The position numbers and the translations under genes are program-made. Positions 9,099-16,775 of a DNA stretch of 64,000 bases are shown piece by piece (positions within the stretch are counted from its first letter, which is position 1; each line of letters opens with the position of its first letter). The stretch is from an uncultured Holophagaceae bacterium. GTDB taxonomy: Bacteria; Acidobacteriota; Holophagae; Holophagales; Holophagaceae. The stretch spans positions 310,001 to 374,000 of the forward strand of contig CAIZZF010000008.1 in NCBI GenBank assembly GCA_903937385.1, written 5' to 3'. The notes under the pieces are model-generated. The model saw nothing but the letters and a program-made list of their open reading frames with translations. It had not been told where the DNA came from and made no database searches.

Positions 9099-11027
9099 TC
9101 AGGCCGTGACGGCGACGACCTCGGCGAGGGGGTCGGGGCCTTCCATGACCTGGCCTGCGGTGGCGAAGAGGGCAGCCACGCGGCCCGCGGCGGAGGTGCA
9201 GACTTCCATCTGCATCTTCATGGACTCCAGAATGAACAGGACCTGGCCCTCCTCCACGATGTCGTCCACCGCCACCCTGCACTCGAGGATCTTGCCGGCC
9301 ATGGGCGCGCAGAGGACGCCGGCGGACGAGGCGCCCTTCTTTACGGCGGGCTGTGAGAGGGGATCCTCCACCAGCAGGCTCTCGCCCTGGATGCGCAGGT
9401 CCAGGTGGTGGCCCCGGCGCAGGGCGTGGAAGCTGACTTCCGGTCCGTCCCACCGCAGGGTGAAGCGGGCCGGGCTGCCGGCGTGTTCGATGCGGAGGAA
9501 GGGCTTCTCGTCCCGGCTACCCACCTTGAGCTCCGGGTGGGCCTGGGCGGCGAAGCGCGCCGCCACCGGTGAGATGGGCGCCCCGAGGCCCTGCAGGGTC
9601 TCACTCAGCTGGGACCGGAAGGCCTCGCCCTCGACCAGCCGGGCCAGGCCCTCGGGCAGCAGTGGGCCATTCAGGGCGGGCAGGTTCGCCGCGATCCAGT
9701 CCGTGGATACCCGGCCATGCAGGAAGTCTGGATGGCGGCTCAGGGCCAGCAGGAAGGGCAGGTTGGTGACGCAGCCCAGGATGACGAACTCGGAGAGCGC
9801 CTGGGCGAGGCGGTCTACCGCCTCGCGCCGGTCCGGTCCCCAGACGATGAGCTTGGCGATCATGGAGTCGAAGCGGTCGTTGACGCGGCCGCCCTCGATC
9901 ACGCCGGAGTCCACGCGCACGCCTTGGCCGCCCGGCTCCCGGTAGCGGCTGAGGTTGCCCGGCGTCGGCAGGAAGCCGTGGCGCGGGTCCTCGGCCAGGA
10001 TGCGGGCCTCCAGGGACACGCCCTGGGGCTCGGGAACCCGGAAGGTGCCGGGATCCCCCAGGGCCTTGGGCCAGCGGCCCTCGGCCAGCTCCAGCTGGGC
10101 CTGGACCAGGTCCACGCCATAGACCGCCTCGGTGACCGGATGCTCCACCTGCAGGCGGGTGTTCACCTCCAGGAAGTGGAACTGGCCCTCGGCATCCATC
10201 AGGAACTCGACGGTGCCCGCCCCGCGGTAGCGGGTCTCCCGGACCAGGGCCATGGCGGCCCGCCCCAGGGCCTCGCGCAGCGCCACGTCCACCACGGCGC
10301 TGGGGGCCTCCTCGATGACCTTCTGGTGGCGCCGCTGCAGGCTGCACTCGCGCTCGCCGAGAAAGACGCCGCCGCCGTCGCCGTCGCCGAAGACCTGCAC
10401 CTCGATGTGTCGGGGCGCGGCCAGGTAGCGCTCCACGAAGACGGTGCCATCCCCGAAGCCCGCCAGAGCCTCGCTGGAGGCCTGCTTGATGGCCTCGGGC
10501 AGGCCGGCCAGGTCGGGCACGACGCGCATGCCCCGGCCGCCGCCGCCGCCGCTGGCTTTGACCAGGAAGGGCGCCTTCAGTCCGCGGGCCTCCAGCTCCG
10601 GGCCCCAGGCCGAGGATGGGACGGCGGCCAGCTCATGGGAGAGCAGGGCCGGCAGGGTGGGCACGCCGCACTGCTGGGCCAGCCGCTTGGCGGCCTCCTT
10701 GGCGCCCAGGGCGCGCATGGTCTCGGGCCGGGGGCCCAGGAAGGCGATCCCCGCAGCCTCCACGGCCTCGGCAAACTCGGCGTTCTCGGAGAGGAACCCG
10801 TAGCCCGGATGCACCAGGGTCGCGCCCCAGGCCACGGCTGCGGCGACGATCTCGGCCCCGGCGAGGAAGCTCGAGACCTCCAGCACCGCGTCCGCTTCCT
10901 TGCGGATGCAGGCGTCCGCGTCCTCCGGCGTGCTGATCACGGCCACGGCGAGGCCGCGCTCGCGGCCTGCGCGCAGCACGCGGCGAGCGATCTCGCCCCG
11001 GTTGGCGATGAGCAGGCGACCGGTCAT
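9099..11027 (-). CDS. Acyl-CoA carboxylase alpha subunit (biotin carboxylase + BCCP)
   Basis: 642 residues. Catalyses ATP-dependent carboxylation of biotin carried on its own C-terminal domain, for transfer by the partner carboxyltransferase. The N-terminal biotin carboxylase starts LLIANRGEIARR; the ATP-grasp glycine loop KASGGGGGRGMR is at 157-168; the C-terminal carrier domain has ESMKM with biotinyl Lys604. It is the last gene of the minus-strand operon with acyl-CoA dehydrogenase, carboxyltransferase and AtuA-like protein, as in liuABCD and atu clusters. It is therefore most likely the 3-methylcrotonyl-CoA carboxylase alpha subunit (liuD/mccA type) or the geranyl-CoA one (atuF). The start at ATG 11027 directly gives the family N-terminus, with GGAG 7 bp upstream. 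Confidence 0.93.
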   Translation of the reverse strand: MTGRLLIANRGEIARRVLRAGRERGLAVAVISTPEDADACIRKEADAVLEVSSFLAGAEIVAAAVAWGATLVHPGYGFLSENAEFAEAVEAAGIAFLGPRPETMRALGAKEAAKRLAQQCGVPTLPALLSHELAAVPSSAWGPELEARGLKAPFLVKASGGGGGRGMRVVPDLAGLPEAIKQASSEALAGFGDGTVFVERYLAAPRHIEVQVFGDGDGGGVFLGERECSLQRRHQKVIEEAPSAVVDVALREALGRAAMALVRETRYRGAGTVEFLMDAEGQFHFLEVNTRLQVEHPVTEAVYGVDLVQAQLELAEGRWPKALGDPGTFRVPEPQGVSLEARILAEDPRHGFLPTPGNLSRYREPGGQGVRVDSGVIEGGRVNDRFDSMIAKLIVWGPDRREAVDRLAQALSEFVILGCVTNLPFLLALSRHPDFLHGRVSTDWIAANLPALNGPLLPEGLARLVEGEAFRSQLSETLQGLGAPISPVAARFAAQAHPELKVGSRDEKPFLRIEHAGSPARFTLRWDGPEVSFHALRRGHHLDLRIQGESLLVEDPLSQPAVKKGASSAGVLCAPMAGKILECRVAVDDIVEEGQVLFILESMKMQMEVCTSAAGRVAALFATAGQVMEGPDPLAEVVAVTA

Positions 11028-11064
11028 CGCAGGGCTCCGCCGAAGGGATGCTTGGCCCGGGTCA

Positions 11065-12957
11065 TCACGCCTCCCCGCCGGGAACCAGCTCGCCGACACA
11101 GGGGGCGTTCTCGGCGCTGATGGTGGCCAGCAGGCCCGCCGGGACCTCCACCACGCAGCGGAGCAGCGCCTGGGACAGGGTCTTGCCCTGGGCGTCGATG
11201 AAGAGGCTCATGGTGCCGCCGCCGCCCAGCGTCTCTTCGAGCAGGAAGTTCAGGGCCCAGAGGTTGGGCACCTCGTGGCGCTCTACGTGGCCGAGGCAGG
11301 TGCCCTCGAACCACGCCTTCACCTGGGCCGCGGAGATGTGCTCGCGGAGCCAGGCGTAGCACTCGGGCGAGCGACCGATGAGGCCGATGTTGGCGGTGTC
11401 GCCCTTGTCACCGCTGCGGGCGTGGGCGATGCGCATGAGGGGCAGCCGCAGGCTCGCGCCGCCCGTTGGGATGGCGATGGCCGCGTCGCCCGAGATGGCA
11501 GGACCCACCTCCGGCGTGCCCTTGGTGACGGGCCAGGCCATGGGACCGGCTTCCAGCGCCAGCTCCAGCTTGCCGCTGCCCCGCTCCTCGAGGACCCGGA
11601 CCAGCGGCAGGGCGCAGTCCTGGGGGATCAGGGCGGGCCAGTAGCTGACCACATCCGAGATCATGGGCGCGCCGCCGGTGACGGCGACACCCGAAGGACC
11701 GGACAGGATCTGGGCGGGCAGCAGCTTCCGGAAGACTTCCAGGGAGCGCCGATCCGCGTGGTGCGCCGAGACCCGCAGCAGGATCTCCTTGGTCAGCACC
11801 GCGGGCGTCAGAGACCGGTGGGTGGAATCGTCCCCGATGTACTCGGTGCAGGTGTGGGTCAGGGCGGGCAGCCCCGCCAGGGCCAGCTCGCTGGTGCAGC
11901 GGGCCCAGAAGATCTCGGCGAACACCTCGGCCTTCGCCCGGGCATCAGGCCCCGAGATGATGAGGGTGCCGCTGGTCTTGAAGCCATCGGCGTAGGCGAT
12001 GCTCGCCTTCAGCAGGTCCGTGGGCGGGCGGCCCTGCACGCCGCTCACGTTCACGCGGTCGGGTCCGTCGGCGCGCAGCTGGATAGTGGAGAAATCTGCC
12101 ATGACGTCCGGCGTCAGGTAGCTGCGGGGGTGGCCCATCTCGTAGAGCAGCTGCTCGCGCACGGTCTGGCAGCTGACGAGGCCGCCGCTGCCCGGGTGCT
12201 TGGTGACGGTGAAGCTGCCGTCCGCGCGGCACTCCACGATGGGGTAGCCCATCTCCAGGTAGCTGGGCACCTTCTTCCAGTCTGTGAAGTTGCCGCCCGT
12301 GGCCTGGGCGCCGCACTCGATGATGTGACCCGCGACGATGCCCGCCGCCAGCCGGTCCCAGTCGTCCGCCGCCCAGCCGAAGGCGTGGATCATGGCGGCC
12401 AGCGTGATGCCCGTGTCCGTCACGCGGCCGCACAGGACGATGTCGGGATTGCCCTTCAGGGCCTCCACCACAGGCATGGCGCCGAAGTAGGCGTTGGCGG
12501 CCATCACCTTGTCCGCGTAGGGCGCGAAGTCCTCGCCGGTCTCCATGTTCTTGAAGGCCACGCCCTGGCTGCGCAGGGTGCTCATGGTCGGCGCGATGTC
12601 GTCGCCATCCACGATGGCCACCCGGAGCTTCAGGCCCTGCTTGCGGGCCACGGCGGCGAGGGCCTCGGCGCAGGCCTGGGGGTTCACGCCGCCGGCGTTG
12701 GTGATGATGCGGATGCCGCGGCGCAGGATGTCGCCCAGCAGGGGCTCCACCTGGGTGACGAAGTCCCGGGCATAGCCGGCGCTGGGATCCCGCAGCTTCT
12801 GCTTCTGCAGGATGCTCATGGTGATCTCGGCCAGGAAGTCGATGGACACGACATCCACGGCCAGGGGGCCCTGGACCTGGCGCCGCAGGGCATAGGGGTC
12901 ATCGCCCCAGTAGCCACCGGCGTTGGCGATGCGAAGGATGCGCGACTCAGGGGACAT
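11065..12957 (-). CDS. AtuA-family protein (DUF1446 plus C-terminal AtuA-like domain)
   Basis: 630 residues. Residues about 5-450 match the DUF1446/AtuA family, with IANAGGYWGDD at the start, RGIRIITNAGGVNP and VDGDD. The C-terminal about 110 residues, beginning LMRIAHARSGDKGDTANIGL, are the small AtuA-like domain, here fused as in many members. AtuA was named from acyclic terpene utilisation in Pseudomonas; its chemical step is not established. Here it sits between the two carboxylase subunits, 34 bp after the carboxyltransferase and 37 bp before the biotin carboxylase, so it must serve the same pathway. No enoyl-CoA hydratase gene is present in the operon, so AtuA may act on the 3-methylglutaconyl-type product. 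That role is inference. Confidence 0.88.
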   Translation of the reverse strand: MSPESRILRIANAGGYWGDDPYALRRQVQGPLAVDVVSIDFLAEITMSILQKQKLRDPSAGYARDFVTQVEPLLGDILRRGIRIITNAGGVNPQACAEALAAVARKQGLKLRVAIVDGDDIAPTMSTLRSQGVAFKNMETGEDFAPYADKVMAANAYFGAMPVVEALKGNPDIVLCGRVTDTGITLAAMIHAFGWAADDWDRLAAGIVAGHIIECGAQATGGNFTDWKKVPSYLEMGYPIVECRADGSFTVTKHPGSGGLVSCQTVREQLLYEMGHPRSYLTPDVMADFSTIQLRADGPDRVNVSGVQGRPPTDLLKASIAYADGFKTSGTLIISGPDARAKAEVFAEIFWARCTSELALAGLPALTHTCTEYIGDDSTHRSLTPAVLTKEILLRVSAHHADRRSLEVFRKLLPAQILSGPSGVAVTGGAPMISDVVSYWPALIPQDCALPLVRVLEERGSGKLELALEAGPMAWPVTKGTPEVGPAISGDAAIAIPTGGASLRLPLMRIAHARSGDKGDTANIGLIGRSPECYAWLREHISAAQVKAWFEGTCLGHVERHEVPNLWALNFLLEETLGGGGTMSLFIDAQGKTLSQALLRCVVEVPAGLLATISAENAPCVGELVPGGEA

Positions 12958-12991: not shown

Positions 12992-14599
<1,608 letters not shown>

Positions 14600-14608
14600 G
14601 CTCAGACC

Positions 14609-15766
14609 TCAGTATTCCGCGAGCAGGTAGCGGGCGATGACGGTGCGCTGGATCTCGCTGGTGCCTTCGCCGATGGTGCAGAGCTTCACGTCCCGGTAGT
14701 ACTTCTCCACAGGGTAGTCCTTGATGTAGCCGTAGCCACCCAGGATCTGCACGGCCTCGTCCGCCACCCGGCAGGCCACCTCGGAGCTGAAGAGCTTGGC
14801 CATGCTGGCGGCCTTGGCGTAGGGCAGGCCCGCGTCCTTGAGGCCTGCCGCGCGATAGATGAGCAGGCGGGCGGCCTCGATCTCGGTGCCCATGTCCGCC
14901 AGCTTGAACTGGATCCCCTGGTGGCCTGAGAGAGGCTTGCCGAAGGTCTGCCGGATCTTGCTGTAGCGCACGGCCTCCTCGAAAGCGCCCTGGGCCATGC
15001 CCAACCCAAGGGCCGCGATGCTGATGCGCCCGCCGTCCAGGGTCTTCATGGCCTGCTTGAAGCCCACGCCGTCCTCGCCCAGCAGGTTGGCCTCGGGCAC
15101 CCGCACGTCCTCGAGGATCAGCTCGGAAGTGTCGCTGGCGCGCAGGCCCAGCTTGTTCTCCTGCTTGCCGGCGCGGAAGCCGTTCATGCCCTTCTCCAGC
15201 ACGAAGGCACTGATGCCGTCCGCGCTGCTGTGGCCGGGCTGGGGCGCCCGGGTGCGGGCCATCACCACGAAGATGTCGCCCACGGTGGCGTGCGTGATGA
15301 AGGTCTTGTTGCCGTTCAGGATGTAGTGGGAGCCTTCCTTCTTGGCGACGGTGCGCAGGGACCCCGCATCGCTGCCGGAACCGGGCTCGGTGAGGCCCCA
15401 GGCGCCGATGGCCTTGCCGCTGGCGAGGGGCTTCAGGTAGGCCTGCTTCTGGCGCTCGTCACCCATGCTGTAGATGTGGTTGGAGCAGAGGCTGTTGTGG
15501 GCGGCCACGGTGATGCCGACGGAGCCATCCACCCGGGAGAGCTCCTCCACCACCACGGCGTATTCCTGGTAGCCCATGCCCGCCCCACCGTACTGCTCGG
15601 GGAAGATGACGCCCATCATGCCCATCTCGCCCAGCTGCTTCACCACAGCCGTGGGGAAGGTCTTGGCCTCGTCCCACTCCATGACGTGGGGGCGGATCTC
15701 CTTCTCGGCGAACTTGCGCACTTCCTGGCGCAGGGCTTCAACGTGATCGGGCAGCGTGACGTCCAT
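14609..15766 (-). CDS. Acyl-CoA dehydrogenase (isovaleryl-/short-branched-chain type)
   Basis: 385 residues, the usual length. FAD flavoenzyme that puts a 2,3-double bond into an acyl-CoA and passes electrons to electron-transfer flavoprotein. It shows the family motifs [25 protein letters not shown], the C-terminal [19 protein letters not shown] and [10 protein letters not shown], with Glu367 as expected catalytic base in the short-chain arrangement. It is first in the operon and divergent from a MerR regulator. By context it should oxidise isovaleryl-CoA (liuA) or citronellyl-CoA (atuD). In isovaleryl-CoA dehydrogenases the base is usually elsewhere in the chain, so a butyryl/2-methylbutyryl-type active site acting in this pathway is possible. 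SD AGGAG precedes ATG 15766. Confidence 0.92.
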
Positions 15767-15842
15767 GGGGCACTCCTGAGGAGAAAAGGGGCGACGAGGG
15801 ACTGCGGGCAGGGAGGGAAGGAATGTTCCAAGATTGGTTTCC

Positions 15843-15860
15843 CTTTACGTAAACGTCAAG
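15843..15860. promoter_or_regulatory. Candidate MerR-family operator
   Basis: CTTTACGT-AA-ACGTCAAG is an 8-bp inverted repeat with one mismatch and a 2-bp spacer. It lies 77 bp upstream of the acyl-CoA dehydrogenase and 58 bp upstream of the divergent MerR gene. Read on the minus strand it begins CTTGACG and so overlaps a TTGACG -35-like hexamer pointing into the acyl-CoA operon. From memory it resembles proteobacterial LiuR sites built from TTGACGT and ACGTAAA half-sites; I could not check this. Confidence 0.65.
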
Positions 15861-15917
15861 CAAATTTGTGCAAGAATCTTTTACCGCCATCTGGCGACCA
15901 AGGCCTCAGGAGAGCCC

Positions 15918-16319
15918 ATGTCCGACATCGAGCGCACCTGGACCATCGCCGAGATCGCCCTGGAGTTCGGCGTAACCCACCGAACCATCCGGTTTTACGA
16001 GGACCAGGGGCTGATCACGCCGGAGCGCCGGGGCACCCAGCGCATCTTCCACCCCCGGGACCGGGTCCGCCTGGAGCTGGTGCTGCGGGGCAAGCGGCTG
16101 GGCTTCGACCTCGGCCAGATCCGCCGGATCGTGGACATGTATGACCAGCCCCCCGGCGAGGCCGGCCAGCTGCGCTACCTGCTGGAGCGCATCGCCGCCC
16201 GGCGGTTGGAGCTGGAGCAGCGCCGCCACGACCTCGAGCTCACCCTCGCCGAGCTGGACGAGGTGGAGCGGCGCTGCCGAGCGGATGCTGCCGGCGCCCC
16301 GAAGAGCCGCCGGAGCTAG
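15918..16319 (+). CDS. MerR-family regulator, LiuR-like
   Basis: 133 residues. The N-terminal MerR helix-turn-helix reads WTIAEIALEFGVTHRTIRFYEDQGLITPERRGTQ in two adjacent segments, followed by a wing with HPRDRVRLELVLRGKRLGF and a long coiled-coil dimerisation helix (about residues 70-120). No Cys cluster for metal binding is seen, so it is not a metal-type MerR; ligand sensing, perhaps of an acyl-CoA intermediate, is inferred. It is divergent from the acyl-CoA operon and the inverted repeat at 15843-15860 lies between them, the arrangement of LiuR, which controls leucine/isovalerate degradation in proteobacteria. The start at 15918 has AGGAGAG upstream and gives the normal family N-terminus. 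Confidence 0.85.
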   Translation: MSDIERTWTIAEIALEFGVTHRTIRFYEDQGLITPERRGTQRIFHPRDRVRLELVLRGKRLGFDLGQIRRIVDMYDQPPGEAGQLRYLLERIAARRLELEQRRHDLELTLAELDEVERRCRADAAGAPKSRRS

Positions 16320-16337: not shown

Positions 16338-16775
16338 CTACTTGCTGATGGCGAGGTGATCCCGCAGCCCCCGCAGGGCCAGGGCGTAACCCGCGACACC
16401 GAACCCCGCGATGACACCGAGGCTGACGGCGGAGGTCTGGCTGGCGGGGCCGCGGCGGAGCGGGTTCGAGATGTGGACCTCGAGGGTGGGGAAGGCCACC
16501 TGGGAGAGGGCGGCCACCAGCGCGGGGTAGCCCGTGGCGAACAGGGCGGGGTTGAAGATGGCGCCGTCGAAGCCCTGCTCGTGGGCCGCGTAGATCCGGT
16601 TGATCACCTCGCCTTCGACGTTCGAGTGGAAGATCTCCACCTCGACGCCCAGCTCCTGCGCGTACTCCCGGATCATCCGGTCGTAGTCCGGCAGCTGCAT
16701 GGGCCCGAAGAGGTCCACCTGGACCTTCCCCCGCATGTTCATGCCCGCGCCGTGGAGCACCAGAATCTTGGCCAT
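16338..16775 (-). CDS. Type II 3-dehydroquinase-like protein, active site incomplete
   Basis: 145 residues, the length of AroQ (type II 3-dehydroquinate dehydratase, shikimate pathway). The fold signatures are there: KILVLHGAGMN (normally GPNLN), FHSNVEGEVINRI, IFNPALF and the C-terminal EVHISN with His101, then GVIAGFGVAGYALAL. The mobile-loop Arg and Tyr that catalyse the reaction align with Val18 and Phe23. The NPGAYTHTS loop is changed to NPALFATGY. The Asn (75) and His (101) remain. I therefore doubt that it is the housekeeping dehydroquinase. It could be a paralogue acting on another substrate. SD GGGAGGATG lies just upstream of ATG 16775. Nearby genes give no pathway hint. Confidence 0.75.
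   Translation of the reverse strand: MAKILVLHGAGMNMRGKVQVDLFGPMQLPDYDRMIREYAQELGVEVEIFHSNVEGEVINRIYAAHEQGFDGAIFNPALFATGYPALVAALSQVAFPTLEVHISNPLRRGPASQTSAVSLGVIAGFGVAGYALALRGLRDHLAISK

Follow-up and report, generated by a model that had tools for sequence, protein, structure and literature searches.

A LiuR-type MerR regulator with a predicted single operator, apparently gained by an existing acyl-CoA operon outside Proteobacteria

An 18-bp inverted repeat between two divergent genes, in the 64-kb stretch of DNA analysed here (the window), is very probably the operator of the adjacent LiuR-type MerR regulator, forming a single-operon repression switch that an existing operon would have gained together with that regulator. 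Judging from the comparisons below, gene and site are almost certainly a LiuR-type regulator and its operator in a genome outside Proteobacteria. An earlier sequence-only reading had pointed to this regulator and site; its interpretation is partly supported, being right on the kind of regulator and site and too broad on the regulon and its conservation. The features are:

9099..11027, minus strand: biotin carboxylase / biotin carrier alpha subunit, LiuD-like (domain match; start codon picked by eye)
11065..12957, minus strand: AtuA-family protein with a C-terminal AtuA_ferredoxin domain (domain match)
12992..14599, minus strand: 3-methylcrotonyl-CoA carboxylase beta subunit, LiuB-like (best solved relative 3u9r)
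14609..15766, minus strand: acyl-CoA dehydrogenase, the operon's first gene (GEGTSE at the catalytic place)
15837..15854, no strand: candidate degenerate second site GTTTCCCTTTACGTAAAC, shifted by 6 bp and overlapping the first site (20.7 bits)
15843..15860, no strand: predicted LiuR-type operator, 18 bp, CTTTACGT-AA-ACGTCAAG (conservation, co-occurrence, matrix score)
15918..16319, plus strand: LiuR-type MerR-family regulator, 133 aa (Pfam MerR_1 and MerR-DNA-bind; tree with LiuR-like proteins)
16338-16769, minus strand: type II dehydroquinase-like gene adjoining the MerR gene (below NCBIfam cut-offs)

The arms CTTTACGT and ACGTCAAG enclose a 2-bp spacer, AA, and one of their eight positions breaks the inverted symmetry, as the earlier reading had it; the sequence stands exactly at 15843-15860. 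The flanking start codons are divergent (the acyl-CoA dehydrogenase ATG ends at 15766 on the minus strand and the MerR ATG is at 15918 on the plus strand), and with its centre ~9 bp off their midpoint the site does lie, as described, midway between them. We found no second copy of the 18-mer in the window when up to 3 mismatches were allowed (0.05 expected; the second row of the search is the same place on the opposite strand). On a matrix of 29 distinct sites from proteobacterial LiuR-like loci, which is not the published LiuR logo, the site scores 31.2 bits of a possible 34.6, versus 3.2 bits for the runner-up in the 64 kb that does not overlap it. The window's own site, that of the congener G038 and those of earlier-collected loci had shaped the pattern used for collecting sites, and the reversed pattern and shuffles served as controls. 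The window MerR gene has a predicted operator of the TTKACGTWWACGTMAA type upstream, and the earlier statement that LiuR uses the same half-sites is borne out by that score and by their presence upstream of proteobacterial LiuR-like genes. Taken without comparison, an 18-bp match would be a thin basis for an operator, and the repeat could be a chance palindrome or a terminator or other structural element unrelated to the MerR. Its conservation, its co-occurrence with MerR and a matrix drawn from other taxa reduce this to a vanishingly small probability, and we rejected it on the uniqueness of the site in the window, a scan that found no terminator at the site, and 31.2 versus 3.2 bits.

The regulator matches Pfam MerR_1 (3.7e-14) and MerR-DNA-bind (1.6e-12), and these domains, its position in a tree of LiuR-like proteins and its carboxylase neighbours agree with the description of it as LiuR-like. 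Among solved structures, CueR and other MerR-family proteins come closest to the regulator. The usual mode of CueR, SoxR and MerR is activation by untwisting a promoter with an over-long spacer, and both this behaviour and the structural relatives would favour a classical activator here, with the dyad lying between -35 and -10 elements set too far apart and the ligand-bound regulator untwisting the promoter. We consider this unlikely, as the TTGACG hexamer, whose overlap with the repeat had been correctly noticed, lies on the minus strand within the dyad arm and not beside it; a scan of 15700-16000 supported no sigma-70-type promoter, leaving TTGACG unconfirmed as a -35 box; and LiuR is termed a repressor in print, in an excerpt of one paper (PMC3223726). 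In the repression switch that we prefer, a regulator dimer would bind the 18-bp dyad in the control region common to the two divergent genes, and because this region is shared, one site could shut off the regulator's own gene (autoregulation) as well as the operon for 3-methylcrotonyl-CoA / leucine-isovalerate breakdown. As an acyl-CoA intermediate built up, the regulator would release or change the DNA, and the operon would be transcribed. Binding, repression, the direction of control and the acyl-CoA ligand are what we infer from the comparisons, and the repression geometry is a guess because the scan gave no sigma-70-type promoter.

The pairing of the regulator with its operator is conserved, while the regulation of the operon is not. 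A MerR match at E <= 1e-15 was found in 9 of the 150 relatives searched, all within the genus, for which the sample is 47 genomes (9 MerR carriers and 38 non-carriers). The 18-mer is identical in all eight close MerR loci (the window and 7 close congeners), where it sits in a conserved island and the DNA on the operon side is less conserved. In the ninth carrier, G038, whose MerR is 55% identical, CTTTACGTTTACGTAAACGTAAAC stands between the MerR gene and a full liu operon (isovaleryl-type dehydrogenase, carboxylase beta, alpha and an HMG-CoA-lyase-like gene). A site with up to 1 mismatch is present in 9/9 carriers of the genus and in 0/11 tested non-carriers (of 38). The carboxylase beta gene (E <= 1e-100) was found in 8 of the 47 genomes, all of them MerR carriers; in G027, the one carrier that lacks it, the MerR gene is on a 3.5-kb contig. 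Across a phylum sample of 396 genomes, MerR (E <= 1e-20) was found in 6, the exact site in 7 and both in 5, an association whose Fisher p of 1.6e-9 is inflated by treating genomes as independent when 4 of the 5 are from one genus. In G382, which carries the sixth MerR, the site has 1 mismatch; G382 and G375 belong to another family of the same phylum. Two further genomes (G365 and G441) have the exact site and no MerR match, and we took these sites as chance occurrences rather than real operators, given that the reversed control pattern reaches 3 genomes among the matches listed.

Two genomes of the sister genus (code g5 for both), G050 and G059, also carry the orthologous operon, with identities to the window of 74-75% for the dehydrogenase, 78-81% for carboxylase beta, 66-69% for AtuA and 62% for alpha. 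We found neither a MerR gene nor a site at up to 2 mismatches in the 16-17 kb around these operons, and neither a MerR match nor the exact site anywhere in the two genomes. The regulator and site are therefore paired with each other and do not belong to the operon as a fixed component. The supposition that the site is conserved upstream of orthologous operons thus stands for the eight close loci, with their identical 18-mers, and fails for the sister genus; the wider claim of a conserved regulon logic does not survive these two operons and the phylum counts (MerR in 6/396, exact site in 7/396). The word regulon also has to be given up. In the whole genome the site at up to 1 mismatch occurs at one place only, 15843-15860, so that the proposed scan for copies at other branched-chain genes gave none at this threshold; two further places, with 2 mismatches, lie on C13 and C21 of the genome, and near the other genes of the window the matrix found no second site, with nothing else above 3.2 bits bar the overlapping 15837. 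This single site argues for a local one-site switch, and not a multi-operon regulon.

The 16S sequence of the window's genome is 77-78% identical to Actinomycetota and to Proteobacteria, compared with 84-91% in proteobacterial pairs, which places the genome outside both phyla and agrees with the earlier placement outside proteobacteria. The genus may be Geothrix or one close to it (Acidobacteriota). A quick tree built from 93 MerR rows puts the window MerR beside Actinomycetota (support 97), within the LiuR-like tree, and the G038 MerR beside Betaproteobacteria (support 96); the tree has 130 columns, poorly resolved deep forks and no experimentally characterised LiuR row knowingly in it. Forcing the genus's MerR rows together was disfavoured at p-AU 0.018, a weak result in that the group was picked after seeing the tree. 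Horizontal gain would fit better than vertical conservation. The regulator seems to have come together with its operator, and this joint gain probably happened twice: the window MerR groups with Actinomycetota and that of its congener G038 with Betaproteobacteria. Alternatively, MerR and site may have been lost in the sister genus g5, instead of gained in the window's clade. It is conceivable, though doubtful, that a LiuR-type MerR gene and its 18-24-bp operator form a small cassette that moves between phyla and was captured at least twice in this genus, once by an uncontrolled existing operon and without the original enzyme genes. Having one operon both with and without its regulator and site amounts to a clean natural experiment, which makes it possible to study directly how transcriptional control is gained by gene transfer.

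For LiuR-like loci in other phyla, the named loci are the best 80 of 541 confirmed relatives, and the counts that follow refer to these 80. Within 250 bp upstream of the MerR gene, a site at up to 1 mismatch is present in 55 loci and one at up to 2 mismatches in 71, with the reversed pattern giving 0 and shuffles averaging 0 and 0.05, respectively; 16 of the 25 loci without a site at up to 1 mismatch have a 2-mismatch one. Across whole loci the site was found in 61/80. The closest MerR proteins outside the genus, 62-78% identical to the window's, are from Actinomycetota (L045-L048, L051, L052 and L072, from Intrasporangiaceae and one Kineosporiaceae MAG). In all 7 of these loci an acyl-CoA dehydrogenase gene diverges from the MerR gene with the operator between the two, as in the window, and the dehydrogenase carries GEGTSE in the 6 of 7 for which the motif was read. 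They are unlike the window in that their enzymes are only ~38-44% identical to the window's and that 6/7 have a 24-bp double operator.

Azospirillum ramasamyi has the identical 18-mer upstream of its MerR gene, there with a thiolase operon. A MerR related to the window's adjoins a thiolase/fatty-acid operon in Azospirillum L042, Alloyangia L044, G382 (where a thiolase gene directly follows the MerR gene) and, by eye, G375. The operator type is the same in 3/4 of these loci, none being found in L044, and they differ from the window in their targets, which are thiolase and beta-oxidation genes. Related MerR genes beside thiolase/beta-oxidation genes were thus observed at L172, L173/L175 (G382, G375), L042 and L044.

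Reading leftwards, the window's operon encodes the acyl-CoA dehydrogenase, a carboxyltransferase, the AtuA-family protein and a biotin carboxylase with a biotin domain. The AtuA-family gene (11065-12957, minus strand) lies inside what is otherwise a leucine-type carboxylase operon. AtuR, the regulator of the atu system, belongs to the TetR family. The presence of AtuA could mean that acyclic terpene use (an atu operon) is controlled here, not leucine breakdown. We regard this as quite improbable and rejected it on the carboxylase beta subunit scores, which are 749 bits to 3u9r (3-methylcrotonyl-CoA type) versus 464 bits to geranyl-CoA carboxylase beta and so do not indicate the geranyl-CoA carboxylase of the atu system. 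The neighbouring regulator is of the MerR type and thus from another family than AtuR, and AtuR binds, as worded in a cited title, two 13-bp inverted repeats.

The identity of the first enzyme is a separate matter. The window dehydrogenase has GEGTSE, where the isovaleryl-type enzyme of G038 and the proteobacterial enzymes compared have GAGTSE, and among solved structures it scores highest against other acyl-CoA dehydrogenases (best 405 bits), with isovaleryl-CoA dehydrogenase reaching at best 312 bits; by motif and structure scores, the operon's first gene in the window is thus not an isovaleryl-CoA dehydrogenase (LiuA). Which type of enzyme comes first characterises the target and not the regulator. 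The window's operon lacks hydratase and LiuE-type lyase genes, and this, together with a catalytic residue that is not of the isovaleryl type, means that the operon's substrate could differ. An enoyl-CoA hydratase gene was observed between AtuA and alpha in G036, G050 and G059 and is absent from the window's 11028-11064; G036 retains the hydratase of the G050/G059 operon type, and the window's genome has no close copy of the G036 operon hydratase, only 34-40% paralogues. Among 20 genomes searched, HMG-CoA lyase homologues 35-40% identical occur in MerR carriers and non-carriers alike, which leaves the pathway unsettled, and a 53% homologue occurs only in G038, inside its operon. AtuA has been annotated elsewhere as an HMG-type lyase (PMC4847356) and, with no LiuE-like gene in the operon, may stand in for LiuE.

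The original LiuR analysis is reportedly that of Kazakov 2009. In an excerpt of one paper, LiuR is a member of the MerR family that represses the use of branched-chain amino acids across diverse proteobacteria (PMC3223726). It has been reconstructed for 103-104 proteobacterial genomes, with 13.7 target genes per genome on average, as the table row reads (PMC5343134, in extract). Extracts of other papers use the term 'ILV box' in Rhodospirillum (PMC7238569) and describe, in Streptomyces, a liu cluster whose putative regulator is not assigned to a family in the extract (PMC9636800). The window shares with proteobacterial LiuR systems the MerR family, the operator type and 3-methylcrotonyl-CoA carboxylase genes adjoining the regulator. 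It differs in having one site per genome, and so no sign of control over several operons at up to 1 mismatch, against the 13.7 target genes given in that table row (PMC5343134), in a MerR gene that is divergent from the operon, where proteobacterial LiuR leads it, and in the type of its first enzyme, the presence of AtuA and the phylum. We found no report of LiuR-operator pairs outside Proteobacteria in the open-access literature, so a pair reported there for Proteobacteria only is now extended to two other phyla.

Pairs of sites offset by exactly 6 bp were found in 17 of the 80 named loci (best 80 of 541), and no other shift up to 40 bp between paired sites was found in them. The pattern can overlap itself at a 6-bp shift, which favours that shift, and the outer 6 bp must match too. 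These 24-bp double operators are at L046-L053, L057, L061, L064, L066, L072, L076, L080, L086 and L088. Within the doubtful cassette reading above, the double sites would suggest an operator in two grades, with one or two dimers on the two DNA faces, and the grade could decide how strictly control is exerted on a captured operon. The window has the double form only in the degenerate state (GTTTCCCTTTACGTAAAC, 20.7 bits), with its TTTCCC flank retained in 8/8 close loci.
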